A stretch of 64,000 nucleotides of DNA from Microbacterium sp. (GTDB lineage: Bacteria; Actinomycetota; Actinomycetes; Actinomycetales; Microbacteriaceae): the NCBI RefSeq assembly GCF_031178445.1, contig NZ_JAPSIY010000004.1, positions 1-64,000 on the forward strand, in the 5' to 3' direction. Below the pieces are notes generated by a model. The model did no database searches. It saw only the letters and a list, made by a program, of their open reading frames with translations, and was not told where the DNA came from. Made by a program: the position numbers and the translations under genes. This document shows, piece after piece, positions 3,751 through 19,976 of this stretch (position 1 is its first letter; each line of letters begins with the position of its first letter).

Positions 3751-4667
3751 CGCTTCTCTCCCTTCTCGGAAAAGCGGACGTAGACGACGACGAGTCCCAT
3801 GAGCAACACCATCCAGAGCAGCCCGAGCGCGCCGGCCCGCCCGAGGTCGAAGCCGTCGAACGCGGTCGAGTACACCGCGGTGGCGAAGGTCTGGGTGGAC
3901 CCGGCGGGACCGCCCCCGGTGAGCACGTAGATGATGTCGAAGTGCTGGAAGTTCCAGATGAACTCGAGCAGCAGCACGAGACCGATGATCCCCTGCGTCT
4001 GCGGGACGGTGATCGAGAAGAACCGTCGCACGGTGCCCGCCCCGTCGATCTCGGCGGCCTCATGCAGCTCAGGCGGCACGGTCTGCAGCCCTGCCAGCAG
4101 CATGACCATCATCCAGGGGAAGGACTGCCACGTCTTCGCGACGATCACCGCGACCATCGCGCTGGTGGGATTCGCGAGCCATGCCTGCGGTTCGTCGATC
4201 AGGCCGACGGCCTCGAGCACCGCGTTGACGACGCCGTAGTTGGCGTTGAAGATCCACATCCACAGGAACGAGACGACGACGCCGGGGATCAGCCAGGGGA
4301 TGAGCATGAGTCCGCGCAGAACCTTCGCACCGCGGATGCGCGTGTTCAGGGCGAGCGCCAGGGCGAAGCCGATGATGAACGGCGCGATCGTCGTGCCGAG
4401 GGTGAACACCAGCGTCTGACCGAGCAGCCGGAAGAAATCGCCCGTGAGGACGTCGACGATGTTGTCGAGGCCGACGAACTCGCGCCCTGGAACGACGAGG
4501 CTCTGCTTGTAGAACGCCGTGATGAGCGCCGTGATCAGGGGGTAGACCACAACTGCGCCGAGCAGGGCGAGGCCCGGGGCGGTCAGAAGCAGCGCGAACA
4601 TGCCATCTGACAGTCGCCGGGGGCGTCTGTCTGTGCTGTTGTGTGAACTATTGAGAAGTTCTGTCAT
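3747..4667 (-). CDS. ABC sugar importer, MalF-type permease
   Basis: A permease of 306 residues from the chosen start, MTELLNSS. A purine-rich AAGGAC lies about nine bases upstream of that ATG; a longer reading from 4727 would run into the promoter. Six hydrophobic segments are visible. The EAA loop (ELHEAAEIDGAGTVRRFFSI) and the FDLGRAGALG end are typical of CUT1 MalF-like subunits. It is the first gene of the importer operon and pairs with the MalG-type protein. Its promoter faces away from the large beta-helix gene, so the two transcription units share a 280-base divergent control region. Confidence 0.92.
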   Translation of the reverse strand: MTELLNSSHNSTDRRPRRLSDGMFALLLTAPGLALLGAVVVYPLITALITAFYKQSLVVPGREFVGLDNIVDVLTGDFFRLLGQTLVFTLGTTIAPFIIGFALALALNTRIRGAKVLRGLMLIPWLIPGVVVSFLWMWIFNANYGVVNAVLEAVGLIDEPQAWLANPTSAMVAVIVAKTWQSFPWMMVMLLAGLQTVPPELHEAAEIDGAGTVRRFFSITVPQTQGIIGLVLLLEFIWNFQHFDIIYVLTGGGPAGSTQTFATAVYSTAFDGFDLGRAGALGLLWMVLLMGLVVVYVRFSEKGEKR

Positions 4668-4731
4668 GGGAGGGCGTCCTTGGCCTTCGGGTGAGACGGT
4701 CGCGCACCGCGTCACTGCGCTGCGCATCCAG

Positions 4732-4759
4732 TGTTTACGTAAGCATGCGCTTTCGTCAA
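4732..4759 (-). promoter_or_regulatory. Importer operon promoter with LacI-like site
   Basis: Read on the minus strand, TTGACG (4754-4759) and TAAACA (4732-4737) are 16 bases apart and make a good sigma-70 type promoter. The spacer holds an imperfect palindrome, AAGCATGCGCTT (4741-4752), with four-base matching arms. This resembles a LacI-family operator and would block RNA polymerase. No LacI gene is in the window, so the regulator is unknown. Confidence 0.55.
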
Positions 4760-4855
4760 CCGAAGACGGTCACGATCAAGTAACGGGAAAAACTGAGAAC
4801 GAATGGTAGTAATTGAGCGATTCGTGATCGCGATGAGAAAGTTGAAGATCGATGC

Positions 4856-4884
4856 TTGATTAGCGATTATCGATTGGTTACGCT
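4856..4884 (+). promoter_or_regulatory. Promoter of beta-helix gene with GntR-like operator
   Basis: TTGATT (4856-4861) and TACGCT (4879-4884) are exactly 17 bases apart. The spacer contains the palindrome CGATTATCG (4864-4872) inside TTAGCGATTATCGATTG (4860-4876). Nearly the same element lies in the spacer upstream of the gntR gene and of the second importer operon. Binding by that GntR protein is inferred from this repetition. Confidence 0.6.
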
Positions 4885-4947
4885 GTCGAACGGTCGCCCA
4901 AACGGCCGCCGCGGCTCGCCGCAGCCCCTCAGACCATCGGAGACGCG

Positions 4948-7900
4948 ATGAAGCGTGCACTGTCATCCCTCGCCCTCGTGGCACTGTTCGGATCGGCGAT
5001 CGCCGTCGCCCCATCGGCGCAAGCCGCTGACGGCGCCGCCCTCTACATCGCGCCGGGGGGTGATGACGAGGCATCCGGTTCCGTCGATGCACCCCTGGCC
5101 ACACTCGAGGGGGCGCGCGACCGCATCCGTCAGCTCAAGGCCGATTCAGGCCTGCCCGAGGGCGGGTACACCGTGTACCTGCGCGAGGGGGACTACGCCC
5201 GAAGCGGGTCCTTCCTGCTCGATACCCAGGACTCCGGTACCGCGGCGGCGCCCATCACCTACCGGTCGTACCCGGGTGAGACGGCCACGCTCACGGGAGG
5301 GCAGGAGCTGCCCCGCGACGAGTTCTCGAAGGTGCAGGACGCCGCCGTGCGCGACCGCATCATCGACGTCCCCGCGCGCGACGAGGTGCTCGAGATCGAC
5401 CTCGCGGCGCTCGGCCTGACCGATTACGGCGAGCTGAGCAGGCACGGCTACTGGATGGCCAACGACGTCAGCAAGACCCCTCCGATGGAGCTCTACATCG
5501 ACGGTCAGGGCATGACACTGGCCCGCTGGCCCAACGCTGATGCGGCACAGCCCACGGTTCAGATGGGCGACATCCTCGATCCCGGCCCGACCCGAAAGGA
5601 CGCGGACCTGCAGGAGCGCGGTGGCACCTTCAGCTATGGCTACGACCGGCCGAAGCACTGGACGCAGGCCGAGGACATCTGGCTCGACGGGATCTTCGGC
5701 TACAGCTGGGAGTGGTCCTACAACAAGGTCGAATCGATCGACACCGAAGCCAAGACGATCACGCTCCGGTACGGCGAGATGTCAGGAATCATGAAGAGCT
5801 GGTTCCCCGACTTCCACTTCGCCCAGAACCTGCTCGAAGAGCTCGACGCACCGGGGGAGTACTACATCGATCGCGGTGTCGGAAAGCTCTACCTGATCCC
5901 GAACGCCGCCTTCACCTCCGGGCGCGGCGACGTCACCGTGACGACGCTCGACGAACCCATGCTCCGCACCGACGGCACCTCGCATGTGAACTTCGACGAC
6001 CTCGTCATGGAGTACGGCAGGGCGACCGCGGCCGTGATCCTGGGCGGGTCGCAGGTGAACATCTCGCACAGCACCATCCGCAACTTCACCGACGGAGGCG
6101 TGCTGATCAACTCTCCGGGGCGCTACACCTACGACGGCATCCCGGTGAACCGCGGCGGCCGCGACCACGCCGTCACCGACAGCCGGCTCACCCACGTCGG
6201 CGGCGTCGGAGTGGTGCTGCAGGGCGGCGACAAGACCACGCTCGAGCCGGGCCGGAACAGGGTCGAGAACTCCGAGATCGCCGATTTCGCGTATTACCAC
6301 AAGGCCTACAACCCCGGAGTGATGTTCGACGGCGTCGGCAACGTCGCCCGCGACAACGAGATCCACGACGCCCCGCACCCGGGCATCATCGTGCACGGCA
6401 ACGACCATCTGTTCGAGCGCAACGAGGTCTACGACGTCTGCAAGCAGTTCCACGACCTCGGCGCGATCTACATGAACTCGGGCAAGACCCCGCAGCAGCG
6501 CGGTCACGTGTTCCGTGAGAACTACTTCCACGACATCGGCGTCGGCATGGCCGGAGTCGAGGGGATCTACGCGGACAACTTCACGTGGGATCTACACATC
6601 GAGAAGAACGTGTTCGTGAACATGGGCAACAGTGCCATCAAGAGCGGGTCGGCCGACTACATCGAGGCTCGCAACAACGTCTTCGTCGACTCCCACGTGC
6701 CATACGACAACTACGAGCAGTGGATGGGGAACCACGAGGGCAACGTCGTCGACAGCGACTACATGCCGGCGTGGCGGCAGGTGTTCGAGGAGAACGACGA
6801 CTTCGTCGGCACGCCGTACCTCGAGAAGTACCCCGAGCTGGCTCACTTCTTCGAGGACGACCACCACTTCCCGAACCACAGCACCTTCGCCCAGAACGTC
6901 GTGTGGAACCCGAACCGCGCGCCGATCGCGGGCCTCAACGACCAAGGGGCCAAGGACGGCAAGAACCTGCTCAACTACGAGAGCAACTGGGTGGCATCCG
7001 CCGATCCCGGGTTCGTGGACGCCGCGAACGGCGACTTCCGCTTCAAGCCCGATGCCGAGGTGTTCCAGAAGATTCCAGGCTTCGAGGCCATCGCGTTCGA
7101 CCTCATCGGCACCGAAGGGCGTATCGGGCAGACGCAGCAGCCCGAGAATGTGCCGCTCGAGGCCATCGCGTTCGATCGTGCGCAGGTCCGGATCGACGCC
7201 GGCGACGAGGTGAGGGTGCGAGCCGTGCCGCTGCCGTGGAACGCCGATGACGCCGCCGTGACCTACTCGACGGCAGACTCGGCCGTCGCGACGGTGAACG
7301 ACAAGGGCGTGGTGCTCGGCGCGGGCCCCGGCACCACCACCGTCACCGCCACGGCGAAGGCGGATGCCACGAAGACCGCGACCGTCGAGGTGATCGTGGA
7401 GGAGGGCGACGGTGTGCTGCACTTCACCGACTTCGAGTCGGGCGCGAACGGCTGGCCGACCGACCCCAACCGCAGCATCCAGATCGATGCGACCGGCGAC
7501 CGGGTGTACCGGATCGTGAAGGGCGCCAACGCCCAGCTGCCGCGCGATTTCACATCGTTCGTCCTCGACTTCGATGTCACCACGCCGCAGACCGCGCCCG
7601 TGAACTCCGGATTCATCGTCTACAACCGCAGTGGCAAGGGTGGCGGCTACATCCGCTATCGCAACGCGGAAGCCGGCCCGACATGGACGATCTTCGATGA
7701 CGCCTGGAAGATCGTCGCCGAGAAGGTGGTGCCGGCCGAACACGGTCTGCCCGCCGGTGAGACATCTCATGTGCGTGCCGCCGTCCAGGACGGCCGCATC
7801 CGGATCTCGGTGAACGGGCAGGTCGCGCTGGAAGCCGCCGACCCGGGCCCTGGCTCCGCCGGCCGCGTCGGCTTCTACGTCGAGGGCTATGCGTCGCTGG

Positions 7901-9015
7901 ACTTCGACGACATCGGGTTCTCGCTCTCGGCAGTGCCGGTGACCGGCGTCGAGATCGATGCCGAGAGCGTGGATCTGAAGGTCGGTGAGCGACGCACAGT
8001 GCAGGCCACGGTCGCCCCGGAGGATGCGAGTGACACACGCGTGACGTGGTCGAGTGCTGATCCCGCGATCGCGACGGTGACCGAAGGGCGCATCGTCGGT
8101 GTGGGCGCCGGCACGACCACGATCACCGCCGCGTCGACGGCCGACCCGTCCCTGACGTCATCGGTTACAGTGACCGTCGCCGATGCCGAATACCCGTCCG
8201 TCCGCCTCGACGCCCAGCTGAAGGATGCGGCGAACTGGACCGACTCCGACGCCATCTCGGTCGACGGCGACGGGGTGCGCATTTCGGGCCAGGGCGTGCA
8301 CGGCTATGAGAGCGAGCGATTCGGCGACACCCTGGTGAGGTTCGAGGCCGACTTCGGCGAGTTCGAGGGCGGCTGGTACGGGTTCCAGGTGCGCTCCGAT
8401 CAGACGGGACTGCCCGCATGGCAGAACTCGAACACCGGCTACCTGTTCGTGGTCAAGGAGGATGTGATCGAGTTCCAGAGCTGGACGCCCGGCCAGACCA
8501 TGCTGGACGTCATCCCCAATGACGTGATCGCACCCGGGAGCACCCACGTGATCGAAGTGGGCGCGATCGCGGAGGACGGCGGAACGCGGGTGGTGCTGCG
8601 TGTGGACGACGAGACGGTTTGGAGCGTCGTGGACTCGAGGGAGAACCTGCGCATCGGCGCCGAGGGATTCCTCAACCTCTACCACTACGCCAAGACGAAC
8701 GTGATGACCGTTCGTCCCGCGCCCTCGGATGCCACCGTGGTCGGCATCTGCTGGTCGAAGGACGCGGACCCGAAGACCGGCTATGTGCGCGGTGAGGAGC
8801 TCGATCTCGCCGGCATGCTGCTGGACGTGAGCTGGAGTGACGGCACCGTGACGCAGCAGCAGGTGTCGGCGGATATGGTGAGCGGGTTCGACAGCAGCAA
8901 GGTGCGCCCGCATCAGACCCTGACCGTGACGTTCGAGGGCGCGACGGTGACGCTCGAGACCTCCGTGCGTCCGAAGCCGAAGAAGCAACAGCCGGAGGTG
9001 GAGCGATGCGAATAG
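4948..9015 (+). CDS. Secreted multidomain beta-helix glycan enzyme (GH141-like)
   Basis: The product has 1355 residues. A Sec signal peptide (cut after Ala26, AQA-A) precedes a parallel beta-helix of about residues 30-735. Its start (YIAPGGDDEASGS, then VYLREGDYA, ITYRSYPGET and LARWPN) matches the style of GH141-type enzymes, a family that includes an alpha-L-fucosidase and a xylanase. I assign this by pattern memory only. A bacterial Ig-like domain (about 731-822), a jelly-roll-like module (826-990), a second Ig-like domain (995-1082), another jelly-roll-like module (1082-1256) and a final Ig-like domain (1260-1345) follow. These are probably carbohydrate-binding or spacer modules. There is no LPXTG or membrane anchor, so the protein is probably released. 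The next gene overlaps it by ten bases, so the esterase is coupled to it. Other readings are a pectate-lyase-like lyase or an epimerase. Confidence 0.75.
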   Translation: MKRALSSLALVALFGSAIAVAPSAQAADGAALYIAPGGDDEASGSVDAPLATLEGARDRIRQLKADSGLPEGGYTVYLREGDYARSGSFLLDTQDSGTAAAPITYRSYPGETATLTGGQELPRDEFSKVQDAAVRDRIIDVPARDEVLEIDLAALGLTDYGELSRHGYWMANDVSKTPPMELYIDGQGMTLARWPNADAAQPTVQMGDILDPGPTRKDADLQERGGTFSYGYDRPKHWTQAEDIWLDGIFGYSWEWSYNKVESIDTEAKTITLRYGEMSGIMKSWFPDFHFAQNLLEELDAPGEYYIDRGVGKLYLIPNAAFTSGRGDVTVTTLDEPMLRTDGTSHVNFDDLVMEYGRATAAVILGGSQVNISHSTIRNFTDGGVLINSPGRYTYDGIPVNRGGRDHAVTDSRLTHVGGVGVVLQGGDKTTLEPGRNRVENSEIADFAYYHKAYNPGVMFDGVGNVARDNEIHDAPHPGIIVHGNDHLFERNEVYDVCKQFHDLGAIYMNSGKTPQQRGHVFRENYFHDIGVGMAGVEGIYADNFTWDLHIEKNVFVNMGNSAIKSGSADYIEARNNVFVDSHVPYDNYEQWMGNHEGNVVDSDYMPAWRQVFEENDDFVGTPYLEKYPELAHFFEDDHHFPNHSTFAQNVVWNPNRAPIAGLNDQGAKDGKNLLNYESNWVASADPGFVDAANGDFRFKPDAEVFQKIPGFEAIAFDLIGTEGRIGQTQQPENVPLEAIAFDRAQVRIDAGDEVRVRAVPLPWNADDAAVTYSTADSAVATVNDKGVVLGAGPGTTTVTATAKADATKTATVEVIVEEGDGVLHFTDFESGANGWPTDPNRSIQIDATGDRVYRIVKGANAQLPRDFTSFVLDFDVTTPQTAPVNSGFIVYNRSGKGGGYIRYRNAEAGPTWTIFDDAWKIVAEKVVPAEHGLPAGETSHVRAAVQDGRIRISVNGQVALEAADPGPGSAGRVGFYVEGYASLDFDDIGFSLSAVPVTGVEIDAESVDLKVGERRTVQATVAPEDASDTRVTWSSADPAIATVTEGRIVGVGAGTTTITAASTADPSLTSSVTVTVADAEYPSVRLDAQLKDAANWTDSDAISVDGDGVRISGQGVHGYESERFGDTLVRFEADFGEFEGGWYGFQVRSDQTGLPAWQNSNTGYLFVVKEDVIEFQSWTPGQTMLDVIPNDVIAPGSTHVIEVGAIAEDGGTRVVLRVDDETVWSVVDSRENLRIGAEGFLNLYHYAKTNVMTVRPAPSDATVVGICWSKDADPKTGYVRGEELDLAGMLLDVSWSDGTVTQQQVSADMVSGFDSSKVRPHQTLTVTFEGATVTLETSVRPKPKKQQPEVERCE

Positions 9016-9608
9016 CCTTCATCGGCGATTCGATCACGGATGCGGGGCGGGATCGCTCCGACCCCGCATCGTTCGGCGACGGCTATGTGGCGCTGCTGGC
9101 CCCTGAGCTCATCGCGGGCGGTGCCGAGGTGTGCAACCTCGGCATCGCCGGCGACAGGGCGGCCGACCTCGCCGCGCGATGGCAGACGGATCTGCTGCCA
9201 GTGCGGGCCGATCTCCTCACCGTGTACGTGGGCGTCAACGAGGTCTGGCGCCTCTTCGACAGCGACGACCCGACTCCCACCGCACGATTCCAGGCGACGC
9301 TGCGCGAGCTGCTCGCCTCGGCGGGCTCGACTCATCTGGTGCTGATGGAGCCCTACCTGCTCCCTGTGCGCGAGGAGCAGGACTCCTGGATCGCCGAGCT
9401 CGATGAGAAGAGAGCGGCGGTGCGCGATCTCGCGGGTGAGTTCGATGCGGCGCTGGTGCCGCTGCACGATGTGCTCAGCAGTGCCGCGTCGCACGTCGGT
9501 GCGAGCGCGCTCGCGCCGGATGGAGTGCATCCCACCCCTGCGGCGTCCGCATTGATCGCCGACGCCTGGCGAACGGCTGCCCGGTCATTCATTAGCGATA
9601 GTCGATAA
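9006..9608 (+). CDS. SGNH/GDSL hydrolase, probable carbohydrate esterase
   Basis: This 200-residue protein has all SGNH blocks: GDSITD with nucleophile Ser9, GIAGDRAAD as block II, VGVNEVW as block III (Asn to a GxNE variant), and DGVHP with Asp172 and His175. There is no signal peptide, so it is probably cytoplasmic, deacylating imported oligosaccharides. The start overlaps the preceding gene by ten bases, which implies translational coupling. Its last codons and stop lie inside the operator of the gntR gene. The family contains acetyl-xylan and rhamnogalacturonan acetylesterases; the actual substrate is not readable. Confidence 0.88.
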   Translation: MRIAFIGDSITDAGRDRSDPASFGDGYVALLAPELIAGGAEVCNLGIAGDRAADLAARWQTDLLPVRADLLTVYVGVNEVWRLFDSDDPTPTARFQATLRELLASAGSTHLVLMEPYLLPVREEQDSWIAELDEKRAAVRDLAGEFDAALVPLHDVLSSAASHVGASALAPDGVHPTPAASALIADAWRTAARSFISDSR

Positions 9609-9619
9609 CGACGTACAAT
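9592..9619 (+). promoter_or_regulatory. gntR promoter with autoregulatory palindrome
   Basis: TTAGCGATAGTCGATAA (9592-9608) repeats the operator upstream of the beta-helix gene and is palindromic at its ends (TTA/TAA, CGA/TCG). A -10 box TACAAT follows at 9614-9619. The predicted start of transcription falls on the ATG at 9627, so the mRNA would be leaderless. The element overlaps the 3' end of the esterase gene. Autoregulation by the GntR protein is inferred. Confidence 0.6.
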
Positions 9620-9626
9620 GGGAATC

Positions 9627-10280
9627 ATGACGGACGTACTGGGCACGGCCGGCCTGCAGCGCGGGCTGCTGTCGGATCAGATCTACTCCATGATCAAGGC
9701 CATGATCAAGGATTCGACATTGGCGCCGGGGGAGCAGCTCGTCGAGTCCCAGCTGGCCCGTCAGCTGCAGGTCAGTCAGGCTCCGGTGCGCGACGCGCTC
9801 AAGCGGTTGGCGCACGAAGGGCTGGTCTCGCACGTGCGCCATCAGGGCAACTTCGTCGCGAGCTACTCCGCAGAGGAGGCCGATCAGGCGAAGGTGGCCC
9901 GTGTCGAGCTGGAGGCGCTGGCCGGCCGTCTCGCATGCGGGGGGTTGCAGGCCGACCGTCGGCGGGATCTCGTCGACCTGATCGATCGCATGCACGACGC
10001 CGCTGAGAATGGCGACCTGGCGCGGTTCCGCGAGCTCGACTTCGCCTTCCACCGCGCCGTGATCGAGGCCAGCGGGAACGCGTATCTGCCGAAGATGTGG
10101 GATCTGCTCGAGCCCAGCCTGCGCTCGATGCACGTGCTGGGAGACCCGGCCTTCACCGGCGACTGGCACGAGGTGGCCGACTGGCATCGTGGCCTGCTCG
10201 ACGTGCTCGAAGGCGGCGACCCCGAGGCGGCATCCGAGCTGTTCCGCAGCCACGCCGCAGGCACGCTCCTCGACGACTGA
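9627..10280 (+). CDS. GntR-family (FCD) transcriptional regulator
   Basis: The 217-residue product has a winged helix at about residues 10-75, with the typical GntR signature LVESQLARQLQVSQAPVRDALKR (split here as LVESQLARQL and VSQAPVRDALKR). An all-helical FCD ligand domain follows (RVELEALAGRLA, ELDFAFHRAVIEASGN). I chose the ATG at 9627 because it coincides with the expected start of transcription from TACAAT at 9614; an in-frame ATG at 9618 overlaps that box. FCD regulators commonly sense organic or sugar acids. Its position between the two halves of the glycan locus, and the repeated palindrome at three promoters, make it the likely local repressor. Confidence 0.92.
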   Translation: MTDVLGTAGLQRGLLSDQIYSMIKAMIKDSTLAPGEQLVESQLARQLQVSQAPVRDALKRLAHEGLVSHVRHQGNFVASYSAEEADQAKVARVELEALAGRLACGGLQADRRRDLVDLIDRMHDAAENGDLARFRELDFAFHRAVIEASGNAYLPKMWDLLEPSLRSMHVLGDPAFTGDWHEVADWHRGLLDVLEGGDPEAASELFRSHAAGTLLDD

Positions 10281-10287
10281 CGACCTG

Positions 10288-11085
10288 TCAGATCCCGTAG
10301 AGCCGGATGGCGGTGCCCGACCAGAAGGCGCTCTGCTCGGCGGTTGTGAGCGAGGGCAGCGCACGACGCGTGGTCTCGATCACCGACGAGTGCGCATGGG
10401 TGCGAGCCGACATCGGCCAGTCGCTGCCGAACATCAGCCGTTCGGCCCCGAGGGTGCCGAAGGCGGTTCCGACGATCTCGGCGAGCTCGCCGTCGCCGCG
10501 GCCGGGCGCCAGCAGGCCGGAGACCTTGGCATGAGCATTGGGCTGCGCCGCGAGCGCCTCGACGCCGGTCTTCCAGTCGCCATCGGCGAGGGCATGCCCG
10601 AGCCCGAGGTGACACACCACGATCGCGAGCCGCGGATGCCGGCCGGCCAACGCGGCGACGCCGGTGAGCTGCTCCGCGCGGACGAGCAGCTCGAGCACCT
10701 TCCCGTCATCGCTCAGCGCGCTCGCGAGGGCGTCGAGCCCCGGTACGTCGGAGAGGTCAGGGGCGAACTGCGGCACGGCGGCGCGCATCGCGGCGAAGCG
10801 CTCCGTGCTCCCGTCGACCGTCGCGCCGAGCGGATGCGGGGCGCCGGGCTCGTACTGCAGCACGGTCGCGGCGATGAGCGGCTCCTGCCGCGCCACGTCG
10901 AGCAGCCAGCGCGCCTCCCGTGCCGTGTCGGCGACCTGAACGGCGACCACCGCGTCTGCGTCTGCGGCAGCGGCGCGCAGCATTCGCGCGCTGGCGACCC
11001 GGGGCAGCTGCAGCTCGTCACGGAACCAGGGCACGGAGAACGCCTCGACGTCCCACAGGTGCACGTGGGCATCGACGATGCGCAC
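10288..11085 (-). CDS. Amidohydrolase, L-fuconolactonase-like
   Basis: A 265-residue amidohydrolase-2 family enzyme. The metal-binding start motif VDAHVHLWDV lies at residues 4-13, VVCHLGLGH in the middle, and MFGSDWPMS, carrying the conserved Asp, near the C terminus. This is the COG3618 pattern of lactonases that open sugar-acid lactones such as L-fuconolactone. The start is a GTG two bases after the stop of the aldo/keto reductase gene, with GAGGGG upstream. Together with the reductase it would form the first two steps of an oxidative deoxysugar pathway. The dehydratase step is not in the window. Confidence 0.85.
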   Translation of the reverse strand: MRIVDAHVHLWDVEAFSVPWFRDELQLPRVASARMLRAAAADADAVVAVQVADTAREARWLLDVARQEPLIAATVLQYEPGAPHPLGATVDGSTERFAAMRAAVPQFAPDLSDVPGLDALASALSDDGKVLELLVRAEQLTGVAALAGRHPRLAIVVCHLGLGHALADGDWKTGVEALAAQPNAHAKVSGLLAPGRGDGELAEIVGTAFGTLGAERLMFGSDWPMSARTHAHSSVIETTRRALPSLTTAEQSAFWSGTAIRLYGI

Positions 11086-11087
11086 GC

Positions 11088-12032
11088 TCAGATCCCCTCG
11101 TACTCCAGCGCCGCCCAGAGCGCCTCGGGGATCTCGGCATCCAAGCCGGCTGCGAACAAGTCGACCTCGGCCGGTGTCCGCGCGCCGATCACGACGGCAT
11201 CCGCGCCGCGGCGGAGCGGGAACACCACGGCGGCGTCGGCAAGCGCGACCCCATGCCGGGTGCACAGCTCCTGGAGCCGTCGTGCGCGGTCGAGCAGCTC
11301 GGCATCCGCCGGTGCGTACTCGAAGTAGGGGGCGCCGTCGGGATCGGCGAGGATGCCGGAGTTGAACACACCTGCGGCGATCACGTCGATACCGCGTGAG
11401 GCGGCGAGGGCCATCAGCCGCTCCTCCGCCGTCCGGTCGAGCAGCGTGAGGCGCCCGGCTTCCATGATCACGTCGAGGGGCGCCTCCGCGGTGAACCGCT
11501 CGAGAGGGGCGAGCCGGCCGAGGCCGACGCCCAGCGCCCTGACGACGCCCTGATCGCGCAGTTCGACCATGGCGGTCATCGCACCGGAGAGTCCGGCATC
11601 GACATCGAGCGGGTCGTGCAGGTGAAGCACGTCGATTCGGTCGGTGCCGAGTCTGGCAAGACTTCCGTCGAGGCTGCGCCATACGCCGTCCCGGCTGAGG
11701 TCGGCGACCGACGATGCTCCGCTCGCCGCTCCCGCGACCGCACGCCCGTCGCCATCGACCAGGCGGCGACCCACCTTCGTGGCGATCGCGACCTCATCGC
11801 GCGGGATGCCGCGCAGAGCGAGGCCGAGCTTGCGCTCGCTCTCGCCGGAACCGTACAGCGGGGCGGTGTCGAAGTAGCGCACGCCGTTCTCGAGCGCAGC
11901 CTCCACCGTCTCCACCGCATCGGAGTCGGCGACGGGAGAGAAAAGGTTGCCGATCGGCGCGCAGCCGAGGCCCACGCCCACGCGCAGCCCGGCGACGGGG
12001 GTCAGCGGACGGAGCTCTGGGCGGAGAGCCAT
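11088..12032 (-). CDS. Aldo/keto reductase, sugar 1-dehydrogenase type
   Basis: A protein of about 314 residues with the TIM-barrel AKR pattern: RYFDTAPLYGSGESERKLG with catalytic Asp and Tyr, ATKVG with catalytic Lys, LHLHDP with the conserved His, and VVIGARTPAEVD for NAD(P) binding. It resembles L-fucose/D-threo-aldose 1-dehydrogenases, which oxidise the free sugar to a lactone. The ATG at 12032 gives a normal AKR N terminus and overlaps the RraA-like gene by 31 bases; a slightly later GTG is possible. Its product would be the substrate of the lactonase encoded next. Confidence 0.85.
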   Translation of the reverse strand: MALRPELRPLTPVAGLRVGVGLGCAPIGNLFSPVADSDAVETVEAALENGVRYFDTAPLYGSGESERKLGLALRGIPRDEVAIATKVGRRLVDGDGRAVAGAASGASSVADLSRDGVWRSLDGSLARLGTDRIDVLHLHDPLDVDAGLSGAMTAMVELRDQGVVRALGVGLGRLAPLERFTAEAPLDVIMEAGRLTLLDRTAEERLMALAASRGIDVIAAGVFNSGILADPDGAPYFEYAPADAELLDRARRLQELCTRHGVALADAAVVFPLRRGADAVVIGARTPAEVDLFAAGLDAEIPEALWAALEYEGI

Positions 12033-12808
12033 GCCTCGTACTCCTCGCGGCTGTCGGGGGTCAGCGGGTAGTAGTCGCTCAGCCGTGCGCCCTCGTCGAG
12101 TCGCATTCGACTGAACACTTCCCACTCCTCATGATCGCGCGCCGACTCCACCACCTGCGAGGCCATCGCCTGTGGCACGATCACGGGGCCGTCGTCGTCG
12201 GCGACGACCAGGTCGCCAGGCATGCACAGCGCGCCGCCCACCGCGACCGGCACGTCGTACGCCCATGGCACCAGCTCGGACTGTGACGCGTAGTGCGGTG
12301 TGGTGCCCGTCGACCACACCGGCAGGCCCAGATCGCGGATGCGGCCTGCGTCGCGGATGCGGCCGTCCACGATGATGCCGGCACCGCCCCTGCGGGCGAA
12401 GTACCGGGCCAGGATGTCGCCGACGCAGCCCGAGAACCGGCTGCCGTACGCCTGGATCACAAGCACATCGCCGGGCTTGACGGCCTCGAGCACGTGCCAC
12501 AGCGCGGTGTGCCGCTCGGCGTACTCCTGCTCGACTCCCGCGGCGCCGTCCTCGCGCTGCGGGAGCGCCATGTCCTCGCGCATGGGCATGAACTGCAGGG
12601 TGATCGCAGGACCGACGACCCGCTGACCGGTGGTGAGCGGCTCGGGCCCGTCGACATAGCTGCGGCGGATGCCGAACTGGTGCAGCTTCGCGCAGGCGGT
12701 GGCCGAGGAGACGGCTGACAGCGAGTCGACGAGCTCTCGCGCCGGTCGCGTGTACGACGACCCTCGCACCGGTAGTGCGAAATCGGGTCTGATCAGGTCG
12801 GCGCTCAT
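12002..12808 (-). CDS. RraA-family protein
   Basis: A 268-residue protein with the RraA fold. GDVLVIQAYG and the conserved Asp-Gly and Arg-Asp of GAGIIVDGRIRDAGRI are the oxoacid- and metal-binding motif. GDLVVADDDGPVIVP follows. Enzymes of this family act as hydroxyoxoacid aldolases or decarboxylases, and related genes sit in sugar-acid pathways. Here it could cleave or process a keto-deoxy acid made from the sugar. The start overlaps the stop of the preceding gene by four bases. The exact reaction is open, and the family name (regulator of RNase E) should not be taken as its function. Confidence 0.85.
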   Translation of the reverse strand: MSADLIRPDFALPVRGSSYTRPARELVDSLSAVSSATACAKLHQFGIRRSYVDGPEPLTTGQRVVGPAITLQFMPMREDMALPQREDGAAGVEQEYAERHTALWHVLEAVKPGDVLVIQAYGSRFSGCVGDILARYFARRGGAGIIVDGRIRDAGRIRDLGLPVWSTGTTPHYASQSELVPWAYDVPVAVGGALCMPGDLVVADDDGPVIVPQAMASQVVESARDHEEWEVFSRMRLDEGARLSDYYPLTPDSREEYEAWLSAQSSVR

Positions 12809-14718
12809 GCGGCTCCTCCGGTTGCGTGGCGCGGCGAGCCTGTCGCGCGCGCGATGGAAAGGTCGAGATCGGCGCAGTGCGCCGGCGGCAGCACGATGAC
12901 CAGGTCGTCGTCGCAGGAGACGTCGATGGCCGATACCGCGCCGCGGGGGGCTGCATAGCTGCCGGATGCTCCGGGGTAGCCGCTGGAGTCCTCCACGTGA
13001 GCGGTCGCCGAGACGATGCGGTCCAGCCCGAAACGACCGCCCCGCAGGCGGACGGCTCGTGTGTGCACGACCGAGGTGTTCACGAGCGTCACGCCGATTC
13101 CGTCGTCATCGAGGCGATGCACGAGGGCGGCGACGTCCTGCGGCAGGCCGGGCCGGTTGCGGTCGACGTCCTCATAGCGCAGCGCCGTGTGACCGAGCCC
13201 ACCGTTGTAGAGCACCTGCGGCGCGCCGCCGACCAGCTGCGTCAGCACCTCGGTGACCACGGGGTTCACGCGCTGCCAGAAGTGCAGGTGAGCGGCATCC
13301 GGATCGTCGTGGTCGCCGAGCATCATCGCGGTGCGCCTGGCCACCTGGCCCAGCGCCATCTGCAGCGCCCGTTCGGGGTAGTCGGGCAGTCGGCCCGCCA
13401 GATACGAGTACCAGCCCGCCTCGTGGCCGGCCTCCTCCTTGTCGCGGAACGGTGCCACCGGGTCGGCGGATGCCGGCAGCCCGGCGATCGCCTTCTCGAG
13501 CCGTGCCCGGTCGGCCTGCGAGCGCGACCACCACCACAGCCACAGCGGCAGGTCGAGCTGCAGTGGGCCGAAATCGAACCAGCCCTCGGTGCCGTGCCGA
13601 TAGGGCACGAGCATCCCGTCCTCGCCGGCCGCGTCGCCGAGGCGCGCCATCCACCCGCCGCGCAGACTGTACGTCGAATCCGCGACCGAACCCGGCCTGG
13701 CTTCGTCGAGCACGGCGTCGAGCATGGTGCGTACCAGGTCGAGGGCGATGTCGTCGTCGGTCACGAGTGCGTGGTTGAGAGCGCCGATCAGGGCGCTCAT
13801 GCCCACCGAGTGCAGCCCGTGCGGCCAGGCCCAGCCGTAGTGCCCGCCCCACCAGCGTCCGCCCTGCAGAGAACCGGGGATGCCGTCGGGTCCTACGCTG
13901 TCGGGCATGATCCCGCCCGCCGCGCGCTGCATCCAGCCGTCGACGTAGCGGCGCACCCAGGCGGCGGCGTGCTCGTCGCCGTCGTACAGCCACGCGTTGA
14001 CGGCCAGGGACGTCGACGCGAGATTGACGGCGACGTCGCCCGCGGCGCGACGCTGCATCTCCTCAGCCATGCGCAACGCGTTGCCGGGCTCGGCCAGGTC
14101 GCTCCAGTCGCGGATGCCGTCCAGGCCCTGTATCGGGAGCCCGTACGGGCGCATCTCCTCGCGGTCGGCCGCGTATGGGGAGACGGTGTCGTCCAAGCCG
14201 ACGCGGGCGCCCAGCGCTCCGTTGTGCGGGGAGCGGATGATGTTCCGCTCGGCGTCGTAGTTGCCGTGCACGGGGTCGGTGTACAGCGCCGCGAACCGAC
14301 GGGCCCGCTCTGCGAATGCGGCATCTGTCGGGTCGGCGGCGCAGATACCGGCGAACATCAGCAGCGACTCGCCCTGGTGGAACCAGTCGTAGCCGTTCTC
14401 GTACTCGTCTGTGAGCATGCCGGCTTCGGCGAGCTGGGCGGTCACGCCCTCCCAGTGCCGCTTCGCGTCGGAGAGCGCCTGGTCGTCGCCGCCCAGCAGA
14501 TAGAACGCGGGCCAGTTGAAGAACGGCTCGTACAGGTCGTCGACGCCGTCGCGATCGATGAACTCGGCGACGCCGCGCAGTCTGCCGTCTTGAAGGGTGT
14601 ACCGGTCCCGGAACACCCTTCGGGCCTCCTCGATCTCGTCGAACAGCCGGCGCTGCAGCACAGCCCAGGCGGGGATGCTGCGCAGCGGCGAGCAGAGCGG
14701 CGCGTCTGTCATCGTCAT
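12805..14718 (-). CDS. Uncharacterised protein, probable alpha/alpha-barrel glycan enzyme
   Basis: I do not recognise a named family for this 637-residue protein. It has no signal peptide. The first 500 residues look like repeated helical hairpins rich in aromatic pairs (FFNWPAFYLLGG, YDWFHQGES, GRWWGGHYGWAWPHGL, LWLWWWSRSQ), as in (alpha/alpha)6 toroid enzymes that act on sugars. The last 120 residues look like beta sandwich (VTLVNTSVVHTRAVRL). Conserved-looking acids and His occur around residues 120-130 and 310-325. It begins four bases inside the permease gene end and ends four bases inside the RraA-like gene, so it is firmly part of the second importer operon and likely processes the imported oligosaccharide. 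Confidence 0.7.
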   Translation of the reverse strand: MTMTDAPLCSPLRSIPAWAVLQRRLFDEIEEARRVFRDRYTLQDGRLRGVAEFIDRDGVDDLYEPFFNWPAFYLLGGDDQALSDAKRHWEGVTAQLAEAGMLTDEYENGYDWFHQGESLLMFAGICAADPTDAAFAERARRFAALYTDPVHGNYDAERNIIRSPHNGALGARVGLDDTVSPYAADREEMRPYGLPIQGLDGIRDWSDLAEPGNALRMAEEMQRRAAGDVAVNLASTSLAVNAWLYDGDEHAAAWVRRYVDGWMQRAAGGIMPDSVGPDGIPGSLQGGRWWGGHYGWAWPHGLHSVGMSALIGALNHALVTDDDIALDLVRTMLDAVLDEARPGSVADSTYSLRGGWMARLGDAAGEDGMLVPYRHGTEGWFDFGPLQLDLPLWLWWWSRSQADRARLEKAIAGLPASADPVAPFRDKEEAGHEAGWYSYLAGRLPDYPERALQMALGQVARRTAMMLGDHDDPDAAHLHFWQRVNPVVTEVLTQLVGGAPQVLYNGGLGHTALRYEDVDRNRPGLPQDVAALVHRLDDDGIGVTLVNTSVVHTRAVRLRGGRFGLDRIVSATAHVEDSSGYPGASGSYAAPRGAVSAIDVSCDDDLVIVLPPAHCADLDLSIARATGSPRHATGGAA

Positions 14719-15611
14719 CCCTTCGTCGCCCCGGCCACGAGTCCGCCGATGATGTGGCGCTGCATCACGATGAAGAAGATCATCGCCGGCAGCACGGCCA
14801 GCAGCAGTGTCGGGAACACCTGCGTGTAATCGGTGGAGAACTGGCCGACCGCGGCGTAGACGCCGGTCGTGACCGTGTAGATGCCGGAGCTCGGGCCGAG
14901 GATGATCTGCGGGCTGACGAAGTCGTTCCACACGCCGATCGAGTTGAGCACCACGGCGGTGGCGACGACCGGCTTCATGATGGGGAAGATGCACGCCCAG
15001 AAGGCGCGGATGCGGCCGGCTCCGTCGAGGGCCGCGGCCTCGTCGATGTCGCGCGGCACCGACCGGAGGTAGGCGGTGAACAGGAAGATCGTCACGGGCA
15101 GCGTCGCCGCAGTCTCGAACAGGATGAAGCCGGGGATGGTGTTGATCAGCCCGAGAAGGCGAAGGACGAACACCACGGGGATCAGCGTCACCTGACCGGG
15201 GATGAACAGTCCCGAGACGAAGAGCAGCAGCAGCCCCAGGTGCCATTTCGAGCGCCCGCGGGCGATGACATAGGCGACGGGAGCGGACAGTGCTATGCAG
15301 CAGATGTTCACCAGCACGACGAACAGCAGGGTGACGCCGTAGGCGGCGATGACGTTGAAACGGCTGCTGGTGATCGCGGCCCAGAGGAACTCGAGGGTGA
15401 AGCTCTGCGGGGTGATCAGCAGGGGGTTCTCGATGATCTCGGCCTGCGGTTTGAACGCGTTGATGACCATCGTGTACATCGGGATCAGCATGGTGATCGC
15501 GACGACTGCGAGCACGATCCACCGCGCCGTGCTCGTGAGGACGGCGGGGCGGGTGCGGGTCTGCTTCGTCAGGGTGCGCGTGCGTGCCGGGAGGGTGGGT
15601 GTGTGGGTCAT
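14715..15611 (-). CDS. Second sugar importer, MalG-type permease
   Basis: A 298-residue CUT1 permease with about six hydrophobic spans. The EAA loop begins RDIDEAAALDGAGRIRAFWA, and the C-terminal segment is QRHIIGGLVAGATKG. The N terminus before the first span is basic and Thr/Arg rich. The ATG overlaps the stop of its partner by one base (TGATG), and the stop overlaps the next gene by four. It is distinct from the first importer's MalG, so the locus carries two complete sets of membrane and binding components. Confidence 0.93.
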   Translation of the reverse strand: MTHTPTLPARTRTLTKQTRTRPAVLTSTARWIVLAVVAITMLIPMYTMVINAFKPQAEIIENPLLITPQSFTLEFLWAAITSSRFNVIAAYGVTLLFVVLVNICCIALSAPVAYVIARGRSKWHLGLLLLFVSGLFIPGQVTLIPVVFVLRLLGLINTIPGFILFETAATLPVTIFLFTAYLRSVPRDIDEAAALDGAGRIRAFWACIFPIMKPVVATAVVLNSIGVWNDFVSPQIILGPSSGIYTVTTGVYAAVGQFSTDYTQVFPTLLLAVLPAMIFFIVMQRHIIGGLVAGATKG

Positions 15612-16570
15612 CAGTCAGTCGCCTTCTGCTCTGCGCGGCGACGCAGGAGCGTCACACCGAGTCCGATCACAGCGGTGACGATGAGCAGCACGATCGACTG
15701 TGCCGCGCCGAAGCCCAACGCCGAGTCCGCGAAAGAATCCTTGAGGATCTGGTAGACGATCGTCTGCGTCGACCCGGCGGGGCCGCCGTCGGTGAGGGAG
15801 AGGACCACGTCGTACACCTTGAGCAGGCCGACGAGGGTGAGCACGATGTTCACGGTGAACACCGGGGCGATCAGCGGCACGGTGATCGAGCGGAACTGCT
15901 GCCAGCGGGAGGCGCCGTCGACGGTGGCGGCCTCGTAGTACTCGGATGGCACCGACTTGATGCCGGCGAGGAAGAGGATCATGTTGAAGCCGAAGTGCGA
16001 CCACACGATCGTGAAGATGATGCTCGCCTTCGCGAAGTTCGGGTCGGTGAGGAAGGGCATGGCGGGCAGGCCGACTGAGGCGAGGATGCCGTTCACGGCG
16101 CCACTCGGCGCGAGCATCGCCGACCAGATGAAGCCGATGATGAGCGCGCTGATCACGTACGGGTAGAAGAAGATCGTGCGCAGGATCGTGTTCGCGCGTC
16201 CGGGGCCGGAGATGAGAGCGGCGAGGGCCAGGCCGACCACGTTGCAGAGCACGGTGCCGACCAGCGCGATGATGCCGGTGAAGACGGCAGCGGATGCCGA
16301 ACGCGGGTTGCGGAAGGCCTTCGCGTAGTTCTCCCAGCCGACGAAGTCGAAGTTGAGGCTGTAGCCGGTCCAGTTCGTGAAGCTCAGCACCCCGGCGAGG
16401 ATCATCGGTATCACGAACATGAGCAGGAACACGATCACGGCGGGCGCCGCCATCAGGAACCCGGGCAAGCCGATGCGGATGCGCGATGCCGCCGACCTCT
16501 CGCGGCGAGGCGGCGGTGTCGCGGCGGGTGGCGGCGCGGCGATCGGCGGGGCGGTCATCGTCTGACTCAT
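15611..16570 (-). CDS. Second sugar importer, MalF-type permease
   Basis: A 319-residue permease with a Pro/Ala-rich cytoplasmic start, then six spans and an EAA loop (EYYEAATVDGASRWQQFRSI). FADSALGFGAAQS precedes the last span. AGAGGATC lies just upstream of the ATG; an in-frame Met four codons later is an alternative. It is separated from the binding protein gene by 63 bases that contain a strong hairpin, which probably lowers its expression relative to the binding protein. Confidence 0.92.
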   Translation of the reverse strand: MSQTMTAPPIAAPPPAATPPPRRERSAASRIRIGLPGFLMAAPAVIVFLLMFVIPMILAGVLSFTNWTGYSLNFDFVGWENYAKAFRNPRSASAAVFTGIIALVGTVLCNVVGLALAALISGPGRANTILRTIFFYPYVISALIIGFIWSAMLAPSGAVNGILASVGLPAMPFLTDPNFAKASIIFTIVWSHFGFNMILFLAGIKSVPSEYYEAATVDGASRWQQFRSITVPLIAPVFTVNIVLTLVGLLKVYDVVLSLTDGGPAGSTQTIVYQILKDSFADSALGFGAAQSIVLLIVTAVIGLGVTLLRRRAEQKATD

Positions 16571-16595
16571 CTTCGAGATCCTCTGTCCTGAGGGG

Positions 16596-16626
16596 CTCCG
16601 GGCGCGGGTGAGTCCCGCGCCCGGAG
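16596..16626 (-). terminator. Intercistronic hairpin after binding protein gene
   Basis: A perfect 13-bp stem (16596-16608 with 16614-16626) and a five-base loop lie just after the binding protein stop and before the permease gene. No T-tract follows. This is typical of mRNA-stabilising or partial-termination hairpins that give more binding protein than permease. Confidence 0.65.
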
Positions 16627-16633
16627 TTCGTGA

Positions 16634-17905
16634 TCAGTTCGCGTTCGCGAGGAACCACGCGTCCATGGCGTCGAGCACTTCCTGCGCGGGGGTGCCGCCG
16701 ATCAGCGCCTGCGTCTGCGTGTTGATCTCGCCCGAGTACTCGGACGGGAGGCGGCGCTCGCCGTAGCCGTGGCCGGTCGGCGTGTACGACTCCGCGGGAG
16801 TGTCGGCGACAATCGCGAGCAGCTCCTTGCCGAGCGGCGTCATCTCGTACTCGTAGCCATCGCGGAAGTTCCCGTCGACGGCGAGCTGGGTGCTGACGGC
16901 ATCCTGATCGGTGACGAGATATTCGATCAGCTGCGCGGCGGCATCCTGATGCTCGCTCGACTTCATGATCGAGTAGGGGCTGGCGATGTTGGCGCCCATC
17001 GACGGCTGCGTGTCGGCGTCGAAGGCCGGGGCGCGGAACACGCCGATGTCGGCCGAGTCGGCGGCCTTCGCCTGCGTGCCGGCGAACCAGCTGCCCATCG
17101 AGTAGACCGCAGCCTTGCCCGAGAGGAACGCCTGCTCGGCATCCGGGTACTTGATGCCGAGGGCCTCCTTGGGGATGTACCCCTCCTCGACCCACTCGGC
17201 GTAGGTCTCGACCGCGTCGCCGTAGGTGTCGCTGAACGTGAGCTCCCCCGCGTTCAGCTCCTGGAACCAGTCGGGGTGCTCGGCGATGATCGAGGGCAGG
17301 CCGAGCGTCTGCAGCGTGTGACTGGTCATCCAGTCGCCCCCGGTCTGCACCGGCGTCCATCCGGCGTCCTTGAGCTTGCCGAGGGCTTCGGTGAGCTCGT
17401 CGACGGTCGTCGGCGTCTCAGCGATCCCGGCCTCGGCGAATGCGGTCTTGTTGTAGAAGAACAGGCTCTGCAGCTGCACGCCGATGCCTGCCATGTAGTA
17501 CTTGCCATCGATGGTGTACTGGTCGGCGAGCGGGCCGGAAGTCGCCCATTCGTACTCGGAAAGGTCCACGAGTTCCGGCGCGATCTCGGGAGTCGGAGCG
17601 AAGGACTGGACGATGTCCGGTGCGTCGCCGGCGGCGAGCAGGCGGGGGATCGCGGCGTGGACCCCCTCCGCGCCCGGGTTCTGAATGACCACATCGATGC
17701 CGTCGTTGGCCTCTTCGAAAGGCGCGACGAGCTCGTTCCAGAACTCCTCGGTGAGGTTGGGGGTGACGTTGACGAGCATGCGGAGCGAGATCCTCTCGCC
17801 GTCCGCGTCGCCCGAGCCGCTGGCCGAAGGGGAGCTGCAGCCTGCGAGAGCGAGAGCGGCGGTCGCGGCGACGCCGAGTGCGGTGATTGCACGGCCCTTG
17901 ATCAT
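16634..17905 (-). CDS. Second sugar importer, solute-binding lipoprotein
   Basis: A 423-residue family 1 solute-binding protein. The signal peptide ends in a lipobox, LAGC, with Cys23. I chose ATG 17905 because AGGAAAGGATC precedes it; a longer reading from 18040 would cross the promoter and operators. Segments such as YYMAGIGVQLQSLFFYNK, AFLSGKAAVYSMGSW and PYSIMKSSEHQDAA are typical of the family. It is the first gene of a seven-gene operon ending with the lactonase, so the imported sugar is probably the substrate of those enzymes. Confidence 0.92.
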   Translation of the reverse strand: MIKGRAITALGVAATAALALAGCSSPSASGSGDADGERISLRMLVNVTPNLTEEFWNELVAPFEEANDGIDVVIQNPGAEGVHAAIPRLLAAGDAPDIVQSFAPTPEIAPELVDLSEYEWATSGPLADQYTIDGKYYMAGIGVQLQSLFFYNKTAFAEAGIAETPTTVDELTEALGKLKDAGWTPVQTGGDWMTSHTLQTLGLPSIIAEHPDWFQELNAGELTFSDTYGDAVETYAEWVEEGYIPKEALGIKYPDAEQAFLSGKAAVYSMGSWFAGTQAKAADSADIGVFRAPAFDADTQPSMGANIASPYSIMKSSEHQDAAAQLIEYLVTDQDAVSTQLAVDGNFRDGYEYEMTPLGKELLAIVADTPAESYTPTGHGYGERRLPSEYSGEINTQTQALIGGTPAQEVLDAMDAWFLANAN

Positions 17906-17943
17906 CGTTGATCCTTTCCTGATGCGTTGGAGGGACACGAGGA

Positions 17944-17990
17944 ACATTACACTAATCGATAATCGTTTGTGAAGAATGGAAACGGTTTCC
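17944..17990 (-). promoter_or_regulatory. Second importer promoter with two operator types
   Basis: On the minus strand, TTCACA (17968-17973) and TAATGT (17944-17949) are 18 bases apart. The spacer holds CGATAATCG (17957-17965), the same palindrome as upstream of the beta-helix and gntR genes. Just upstream of the -35 box is GGAAACGGTTTCC (17978-17990), an odd-length palindrome of LacI-operator style. The pair suggests control by both a GntR and a LacI-type protein. The remaining bases to 18111 show nothing further. Confidence 0.6.
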
Positions 17991-18111
17991 TTCCGTGTGG
18001 TTCGGGCCCTGCGTCGCGGGGTCGCCGGCCGACCGATCATCCGGAGGTACGCGCGGTCGAGCCCGTGTACCGCCTGCTCCGGTGCGCGGCTTCGCAGGCC
18101 GGGCGGCGGCG

Positions 18112-18648
18112 TCAGTTCTTCGCGCGGCGCGCGCGGTAGGCGGCGACGGCGTTGCGGTTCGCGCAGGTGGTCGAGCAGTAGCGCTTGGAGCGATTGCGCG
18201 ACAGATCGAGGGCGACGGCTTCACAGTCCGCGTCGGCGCAGACCCCGATGCGGCTGCCCTCGTCCATGCGGATCACGTCGATGAGCGCCATCGCGGTCTC
18301 GACGAGGATGCGCTCGGCGAGCGGGTGGTCGTCGCTCACGGCGTGCAGATGCCAGTCGAGGCCGTCGTGCCTGGTGAGGCGCGGAGAGAGGTGCACGTCG
18401 TTCAGTGCGCGATTCACGTGCTCCGCCATCTTGTCGCGGGGTGCGAGGAGCATTGCCCGCAGTGAAGGGCGCAGGGTGCGGAGCTCGCGAAGCTCGGCGT
18501 CGTCGCGATCGATGCGACCCGAGTACGGGTTGGCGGCGAGGAAGGCGACGAGGTCGTCTCGCGTGGTGAGGGTGTCGGGCTTCTCGGCCGAGTTCACCAG
18601 CGCGACCGCGGAGCGGAGCGCATCCTCGGTGTCACTGGTGAAGATCAT
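18112..18648 (-). CDS. CGNR zinc-finger (ABATE) transcriptional regulator
   Basis: A 178-residue protein. The N-terminal ABATE ligand domain runs from about residue 5 to 130. The C-terminal CGNR finger has four Cys in CADADCEAVALDLSRNRSKR and YCSTTCANRNAVAAYRARR. These proteins are DNA-binding regulators thought to sense stress ligands. The gene is divergent from an EamA exporter with only 39 bases between, and both appear leaderless, so control of the exporter is the simplest reading. Confidence 0.9.
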   Translation of the reverse strand: MIFTSDTEDALRSAVALVNSAEKPDTLTTRDDLVAFLAANPYSGRIDRDDAELRELRTLRPSLRAMLLAPRDKMAEHVNRALNDVHLSPRLTRHDGLDWHLHAVSDDHPLAERILVETAMALIDVIRMDEGSRIGVCADADCEAVALDLSRNRSKRYCSTTCANRNAVAAYRARRAKN

Positions 18649-19650: not shown

Positions 19651-19713
19651 GCGACTCGCCGCGGTCGGTGGCCGCGGGCGAACGCTGATGGTTGACCGCG
19701 GTCCGCGGTCCGC

Positions 19714-19923: not shown

Positions 19924-19976
19924 CATGGCGATCGCGCCGTTCAGACGTCGCCTGGGGTGCAGGGCGTGTCGGCCGG

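Follow-up and report, generated by a model that had tools for sequence, protein, structure and literature searches.

We analysed 64,000 nucleotides of Microbacterium sp. DNA (NCBI RefSeq assembly GCF_031178445.1, contig NZ_JAPSIY010000004.1, positions 1 to 64,000 of the forward strand; this whole stretch is called the window), in which one palindrome recurs at the promoters of a beta-helix protein gene, of the regulatory gene gntR and of an importer operon that begins with the gene of the solute-binding protein SBP2. On sequence and comparative grounds, this palindrome very probably serves as operator for the neighbouring GntR protein, of FCD type (FadR subfamily), which would repress all three promoters. 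The first-pass annotation of this DNA had placed the palindrome at 4864, 9592 and 17957, and all three sites were found at these coordinates; the finding is real and the earlier interpretation stands, with the corrections given below.

Putative operator sites in the window and in related genomes

Operator 1 contains the core CGATTATCG at 4864-4872 and operator 3 the core CGATAATCG at 17957-17965, and the gntR site TTAGCGATAGTCGATAA occupies 9592-9608. The 17957 site serves a minus-strand gene and, when read along the direction of transcription, both perfect sites have the core CGATTATCG, operators 1 and 3 reading CGATTATCGAT on the transcribed strand. Taken alone, the bare core is modestly enriched in the window: this 9-mer occurs twice, against 0.29 copies expected in a shuffled window, and ten times in the 3.37-Mb genome, against once for a reversed-pattern control. 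The 13-mer ANCGATWATCGNT, which adds an outer A and T to the core, has two exact places in the genome, operators 1 and 3, and five one-mismatch places, the gntR site among them (three for the reversed control at the same tolerance). Three of these seven places fall within one 13.1-kb span (P about 2e-6 for at least three, the span having been picked post hoc). The other one-mismatch places are L021 (C20), within a gene, and L018, L019 and L020, which lie 39, about 11 and 40 bp upstream of minus-strand open reading frames (ORFs). Four of the eight core copies outside the window (L179, L180, L181 and L184) lie in long ORFs predicted with a crude ORF picker, L176 lies in a short doubtful ORF, and L177, L178 and L185 are apparently intergenic; none of the eight coincides with an exact or one-mismatch ANCGATWATCGNT place, so that neither outer base is present in any of them. 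Occurrence as frequent in coding DNA as in promoters, which the first-pass annotation had regarded as fatal to its proposal, is thus true of the bare core and false of the 13-mer. The unspecific core CGATNATCG had 375 copies in the genome and was discarded as useless for searching. Separately, the DNA around L177 and L178 (G000:C10:307695-307731) is AT-rich and holds two TTGCGATWATCGCAA palindromes 28 bp apart, probably the operator of another regulator.

We then compared 149 genomes of the genus, our own included, and accepted gntR relatives at an E value of 1e-40 or better. Such a relative was found in 17 of the 149 genomes, and the gene for GHx, a protein of the importer operon, was found in exactly these 17 (Fisher P 1e-22, a value that ignores relatedness). 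In all 17, a site with at most one mismatch lies upstream of gntR or of the GDSL gene that precedes it. The strict 17-mer WNANCGATWATCGNTNW, with no mismatch, was present in nine of the 17 gntR genomes compared with 15 of the 132 others (Fisher P 2e-4), and its reversed control in none of the 149.

A scan of named genomes extended the comparison to 42 loci from nine genera (Microbacterium, Agromyces, Leifsonia, Promicromonospora, Isoptericola, Krasilnikoviella, Cellulomonas, Pseudactinotalea and Dactylosporangium). Together with L079, L095 and L097 these form a set of 45 regions (854,835 bases) around gntR relatives or their importer operon; L064-L078 (mostly the same genomes as L116-L157), the gntR-less L080-L094, and L096 had been dropped before the matches were counted and are not among the 45. 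Target promoters, which we let run from 400 bp ahead of the similarity match of a gntR, GDSL, beta-helix or SBP2 gene to 30 bp into it, make up 6.6% of this sequence (56 kb) and contained 102 of the 105 matches with at most one mismatch (52 exact and 50 one-mismatch, a few of which overlap at one site); the other three are spread over about 798 kb. Sixty permuted palindromes gave means of 0.85 matches inside target promoters and 1.75 outside, and the two highest (20 and 19 inside) were close variants of the operator motif itself. A site was present in 44 of the 45 regions and stood before all 25 beta-helix genes and 31 of 32 SBP2 genes, the exception being L079, where SBP2 lies downstream of gntR in the same direction. 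Among the 43 loci in which gntR was seen by similarity, there are 13 with no site in the 400 bp next to it. In 12 of these a site stands instead before a GDSL or beta-helix gene that lies ahead of gntR and is co-directional with it; the thirteenth, L157, has no site. The target promoters and the operon of the regulator itself carry the same operator, and the proposal that one GntR protein acts on three promoters, including its own, gains sequence-level backing from both the 45-region footprinting and the 17 gntR genomes.

Two of the three matches outside target promoters, in L097 and L095, lie 53 and about 51 bp upstream of an alpha-L-fucosidase gene (PF01120, 273 and 266 bits), adjoining the importer operon and more than 20 kb from gntR. 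The third, in L137, precedes a truncated SBP2 gene. At L137:13311-14051 this gene is fused in frame to an aldo/keto reductase fragment with the operator intact, a deletion remnant of the operon.

Placement within promoters and competing explanations

In the beta-helix and importer promoters, the spacer between the -35 and -10 boxes is filled by the palindrome, the boxes lying at -12 to -7 and from +11 or +12 relative to the palindrome centre. At the gntR promoter the -10 box starts at +14 in the window and mostly at +15 in relatives, which places the operator 3-4 bp further from the -10 box than at the other two promoters and makes it overlap the presumed -35 box. The first-pass annotation had described the same placement at all three promoters, a description that fits the beta-helix and importer promoters and fails for gntR. 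As a consensus sigma-70 scan of positions 1-20000 of the window called zero promoters, the box assignments rest on the spacing conserved in relatives. There, 16 of the 25 beta-helix site rows and 22 of the 34 SBP2 ones have a -35-like hexamer (4 of 6) at -12, and TAnnnT occurs at +11 or +12 in 22 of 25 beta-helix rows, at +12 in 23 of 34 SBP2 rows and at +14 or +15 in 23 of 33 gntR rows; some of the sites in the SBP2, GDSL and gntR rows are overlapping or double. In the 19 GDSL rows, no TAnnnT was found at the offsets scanned. Only 7 nt separate the gntR -10 box from the ATG in the window, for which reason the gntR message is, on this spacing, probably leaderless. The GDSL gene upstream ends within the 17-base gntR site, which includes its stop codon (9606-9608). 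We also considered as a second control element of the importer the perfect palindrome GGAAACGGTTTCC at 17978-17990, just past the importer -35 box, which we take to be LacI-operator-like and which is expected 0.01 times in the window; it is strain-specific, being found within one mismatch in none of the 45 related regions, and was rejected.

The position of the site within the promoters fits repression. A protein bound in the spacer between -35 and -10 boxes normally blocks RNA polymerase, and it is therefore improbable that GntR binds these sites to activate its targets: the palindrome fills that spacer at the beta-helix and importer promoters and overlaps the presumed -35 box at gntR, although an extra half-site does lie upstream of the beta-helix -35 box and some FCD proteins, e.g. 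CitO, are activators (PMC6608401).

A regulator encoded elsewhere might bind the palindrome instead, with gntR merely one of its targets. Another regulator, on the sequence evidence, is indeed using nearly the same palindrome, the core CGATWATCG being shared with a DUF2975/Cro-type or Clp-linked system of gntR-less genomes and with PcaR. In 14 of the 15 gntR-less loci that carry the 17-mer (L080-L094) it lies beside a long gene of about 730-913 aa (truncated in one case by the end of the locus), often in tandem copies and, in L086, with a doubtful ORF in between. All three long genes scanned (L083, L084 and L085) encode Clp-type ATPases, and a DUF2975 gene lies opposite in L084 (above cut-off) and L086 (below cut-off). 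In our own genome, the one-mismatch place L018 precedes a DUF2975 gene and then a Cro/C1-type helix-turn-helix gene, and it more likely belongs to this other system than to the GntR regulon. These 14 loci rule out that the GntR regulon is present in every genome carrying the 17-mer. The remaining gntR-less locus, L091 (G132), has its 17-mer at 4260-4276 between helicase-like and GDSL lipase genes and fits neither system.

As an account of the cluster itself, such a foreign regulator is nevertheless very improbable. The motif matches of gntR-less genomes are of the Clp-linked kind in all but L091, and no gene of the PcaR or Clp/DUF2975 systems is among the targets of the GntR regulon. Where the cluster is reduced, the site stays with gntR: L154 has two gntR paralogues with a site before each and no other cluster gene found in 20.6 kb, and in L146-L148 only GDSL and gntR, of the cluster genes, were found near sites (the search covered the cluster genes and not every other regulator of these regions). 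The recognition helix VSQ[AS]PVR and at least one site occur together in 41 of the 42 loci, and the remaining locus, L157, has a 35%-identical protein with the helix VSRTPIR and no site in 17.7 kb. The importer operon also keeps its site where it is more than 20 kb from gntR, as in L095 and L097; of the two genomes concerned, G028 has the operon on the same contig as gntR, and G065 has a copy of it on another contig. Chance palindromes in AT-rich promoter islands can be dismissed, for although promoters are usually AT-richer than coding DNA and the bare core is only modestly enriched in the window, the presence of a site in 44 of 45 regions and the permuted-palindrome controls refute this.

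Several points weigh against repression of these promoters by GntR through the palindrome, or against parts of that proposal. The strict 17-mer is exact in just nine of the 17 gntR-bearing genomes, and the same pattern occurs in 15 of the 132 sampled gntR-less genomes, its core serving other regulators too, among them PcaR of Pseudomonas putida, whose operator GTTCGATAATCGCAC contains the core CGATAATCG (PMC12455658). Most relatives belong to one genus, so that the counts are not independent, and the promoter boxes are weak by consensus. In the gntR-bearing genome G065, an exact 17-mer (L096:5497-5513) lies outside the target set beside an FAD-oxidoreductase gene. Finally, the effector proposed below is guessed from resemblances that fall under curated cut-offs. 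A few bases separate the L096 copy from the earliest possible start of the 759-aa FAD-oxidoreductase ORF (PF12831), which may be an extra target of the regulon.

Recognition helix, operator form and operator quality

The GntR protein matches PF00392 (59.9 bits) and PF07729 (88.3 bits), both above cut-off, and its structural model matches FCD structures. Asp138, His142, His187 and His209, which are invariant in 17/17 orthologues, we take to be the metal site of the FCD domain (one Asp and three His), a site that this sequence accordingly appears to retain in full. The operator consensus of the FadR subfamily is TKGT-N3-ACMA, in which an arginine of the recognition helix (Arg45 of FadR) contacts the G (PMC4494728). 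Our operator, CGA-N3-TCG, keeps the frame of the subfamily and departs from that form: the G/C at ±3 is kept, T is changed to A at ±2, and C stands at ±4. By an ungapped, motif-based (not structural) alignment on E-S...S-Q-A-P-V-R, Arg45 and Arg35 of FadR correspond to Gln51 and Ser41, both invariant in 17/17 orthologues. Glutamine rather than arginine occupies the Arg45 place in 41 of the 42 loci, whereas among the 17 other FCD proteins found in our own genome none has Gln there and 11 have Arg. The replacement of Arg by Gln may be the cause of the change of operator; Gln tends to prefer A (PMC4494728). The same paper set BioR and NanR aside from its correlation analysis because of their operator form yet kept both in the subfamily (PMC4494728), for which reason we treat the deviating operator as a variant and not as failed membership. 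What is new here is the form of the operator; the regulator family is known, and the system as a whole is not of a new kind.

Operator quality differs between the promoters. Among the promoters that have a site, the core CGATWATCG is intact at 25/25 beta-helix, 31/31 SBP2 and 17/17 GDSL promoters, compared with only 2/31 gntR promoters (Fisher 1e-23, a value overstated by the relatedness of the sequences). The 29 imperfect gntR cores are of five kinds, CGATAGTCG (18), CGATTGTCG (5), CGATTCTCG (2), CGATTAGCG (2) and CGACTATCG (2), and on this comparison autorepression is likely to be weaker than repression of the other targets. In the beta-helix promoter, the hexamer ATCGAT of operator 1 has a second copy 21 bp upstream, an extra half-site. 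At this distance it is exact in 16 of 25 beta-helix rows (17 within one mismatch) and occurs in 0/19 GDSL, 0/34 SBP2 and 1/33 gntR rows, i.e. 1/86 elsewhere; three loci in which no divergent importer was found (L124, L128 and L142) retain it as well. It lies further out than the extra half-sites of the FadR subfamily, which are 7-12 nt from the site centre (PMC4494728). Taken together, we give an even chance to a broader proposal: that this clade of FCD GntR proteins switched its DNA code (Arg to Gln, GT-N3-AC to GA-N3-TC), keeps its autoregulatory operator one step from perfect by lineage-specific changes, and carries at one promoter a further half-site in phase, two helical turns upstream.

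Among known systems, the sugar-acid repressors DgoR and ExuR of the FadR subfamily are alike in having a winged helix-turn-helix with an FCD domain, catabolic targets and a palindromic operator with conserved base pairs flanking a 3-bp centre. They differ in following TKGT-N3-ACMA (PMC4494728), where the present system has CGA-N3-TCG, with Gln for Arg45 and Ser for Arg35. The nearest PDB folds and sequences are Brucella GntR (7u5q), McbR/YncC, PmiR and TM0439, at 24-28% identity, and in two alignments 7xp0 and 7u5q have Arg at the recognition-helix position, in contrast with Gln here. BioR, another member of the subfamily, controls biotin genes. Its palindrome, TTATMKATAA, likewise lies outside the GT-N3-AC rule (PMC4494728), but is of even length and, unlike our operator, has no CGA/TCG boxes. 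HypR of Streptomyces coelicolor is also an actinobacterial FCD GntR repressor and acts on its own gene too, with weaker repression there than at the other targets, but its site is CTNTGC(A/C)ATGTCAC and it controls hydroxyproline genes (PMC6608401).

The first-pass annotation knew of no described GntR site of this form. Our searches, which covered open-licence papers and the matches listed for each query, did not contradict this: the matches listed for the exact operator strings included no GntR paper by title, and those listed for GntR together with fucose, fuconate or Microbacterium contained nothing relevant. The bare core by itself is not new, as it is part of a published operator of PcaR, an IclR-family protein and not a GntR. 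That operator, GTTCGATAATCGCAC, has the same 9-base core (PMC12455658) with outer bases that differ from ANCGATWATCGNT, and controls aromatic-acid genes.

Genes of the proposed regulon and its probable function

The features of the cluster are collected in Table 1. The beta-helix protein weakly matches two PDB proteins, the pectate lyase PelN and BT_1002, the second of which we take to be a GH141 fucosidase; the BT_1002 match covers ~90 residues close to the start of the beta-helix protein. GHx gave no Pfam match at E values up to 1, and a PDB search gave no name either. Its model is fair (mean predicted local distance difference test score 82.9, predicted template modelling score 0.89) and combines a helical barrel with a beta-sandwich; fold matches are weak, the best template modelling score by query length among the best 50 rows being 0.36, and include many helical-barrel sugar enzymes. 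From this model GHx is a probable glycoside hydrolase and a candidate for a new glycoside hydrolase family. In G065, a second, identically scoring GHx copy lies at the end of the gntR contig; the two copies (C6:252295 and C8:173804), both near contig ends, reflect either a duplication or an assembly overlap.

Table 1. Coordinates, strand and basis of the features of the GntR cluster in the window
Feature	Position	Strand	Basis
Extra half-site ATCGAT	4848..4853	+	21 bp upstream of same hexamer in operator 1
-35 box TTGATT, beta-helix promoter (inferred)	4856..4861	+	-35-like hexamer at offset -12 in 16/25 rows
Operator 1 AGCGATTATCGAT	4862..4874	+	beta-helix promoter spacer; exact match; site at 25/25 beta-helix promoters
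-10 box TACGCT, beta-helix promoter (inferred)	4879..4884	+	TAnnnT at +11 or +12 in 22/25 rows
Beta-helix protein with Ig-like domains, 1355 aa	4948..9015	+	Pfam, NCBIfam, PDB
GDSL esterase gene, overlapping the end of the beta-helix gene	9006..9608	+	Pfam
Operator 2 AGCGATAGTCGAT, imperfect palindrome, predicted autoregulatory	9594..9606	+	one mismatch; core imperfect at 29/31 gntR promoters having a site
-10 box TACAAT, gntR (inferred)	9614..9619	+	TAnnnT at +14 or +15 in 23/33 rows
gntR, FCD/FadR-subfamily regulator, recognition helix SQAPVR	9627..10280	+	Pfam, alignment, model and fold matches
Amidohydrolase resembling L-fucono-1,5-lactonase	10288..11088	-	NCBIfam 116 bits against cut-off 400; PDB
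Aldo/keto reductase resembling L-galactose dehydrogenase	11088..12032	-	Pfam, PDB, start codon choice
RraA/aldolase-like protein	12002..12808	-	NCBIfam, PDB
GHx, 637 aa, probable glycoside hydrolase (inference)	12805..14718	-	model; same 17/149 genomes as gntR
ATP-binding cassette (ABC) importer permease	14715..15611	-	Pfam
ABC importer permease	15611..16570	-	Pfam
SBP2, solute-binding protein, first gene of the second importer operon	16634..17905	-	Pfam, start codon choice
-10 box TAATGT, importer promoter (inferred)	17944..17949	-	TAnnnT at +12 in 23/34 rows
Operator 3 AACGATTATCGAT on the minus strand	17955..17967	-	importer promoter spacer; exact match; site at 31/32 SBP2 genes
-35 box TTCACA, importer promoter (inferred)	17968..17973	-	-35-like hexamer at -12 in 22/34 rows

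Besides the importer and GHx, this second operon encodes an RraA/aldolase-like protein and an aldo/keto reductase whose nearest PDB matches are L-galactose dehydrogenases, together with an amidohydrolase that scores 116 bits against the L-fuconolactonase model (cut-off 400). Non-phosphorylating L-fucose catabolism proceeds through L-fucose dehydrogenase, L-fuconolactonase, fuconate dehydratase and downstream enzymes; by resemblance, the operon holds candidate dehydrogenase-like, lactonase-like and aldolase-like genes. Because of these resemblances and of the alpha-L-fucosidase genes behind the same site in two relatives, our best guess at the substrate is a fucose-containing plant glycan. Our own genome has five PF01120 genes, none of them in the window or near an exact or one-mismatch ANCGATWATCGNT place. 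The first importer cluster nearby encodes a BNR protein with a weak match to the alpha-L-rhamnosidase model (45 bits against 700). Elsewhere in the window, at 26287-31816, a second FCD GntR gene is followed by MmgE/PrpD, PEP-mutase-like, citrate-synthase and thiolase genes, probably a methylcitrate-type operon.

In the mechanism that we propose, a GntR dimer would occupy ANCGATWATCGNT, lying between the -35 and -10 boxes or over them, and would block RNA polymerase at the beta-helix/GDSL, importer operon and gntR promoters. Degradation of the glycan would lead to accumulation of a sugar acid, most likely L-fuconate, which the FCD domain and its metal would bind, so that GntR would release the DNA. 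That the effector is L-fuconate or its lactone is a tentative proposal drawn from the gene content, which we put slightly below even.

Most known operators of this very large regulator family follow one consensus, and the GntR system suggests a residue-to-base rule for the family that can be tested. The system also ties GHx, a protein without a Pfam family, to a regulator and to a likely class of substrate. The regulon delimited here is compact and covers a probable pathway for fucosylated glycans; it is present in eight actinobacterial genera, and in a ninth, Dactylosporangium, the gntR site occurs alone.

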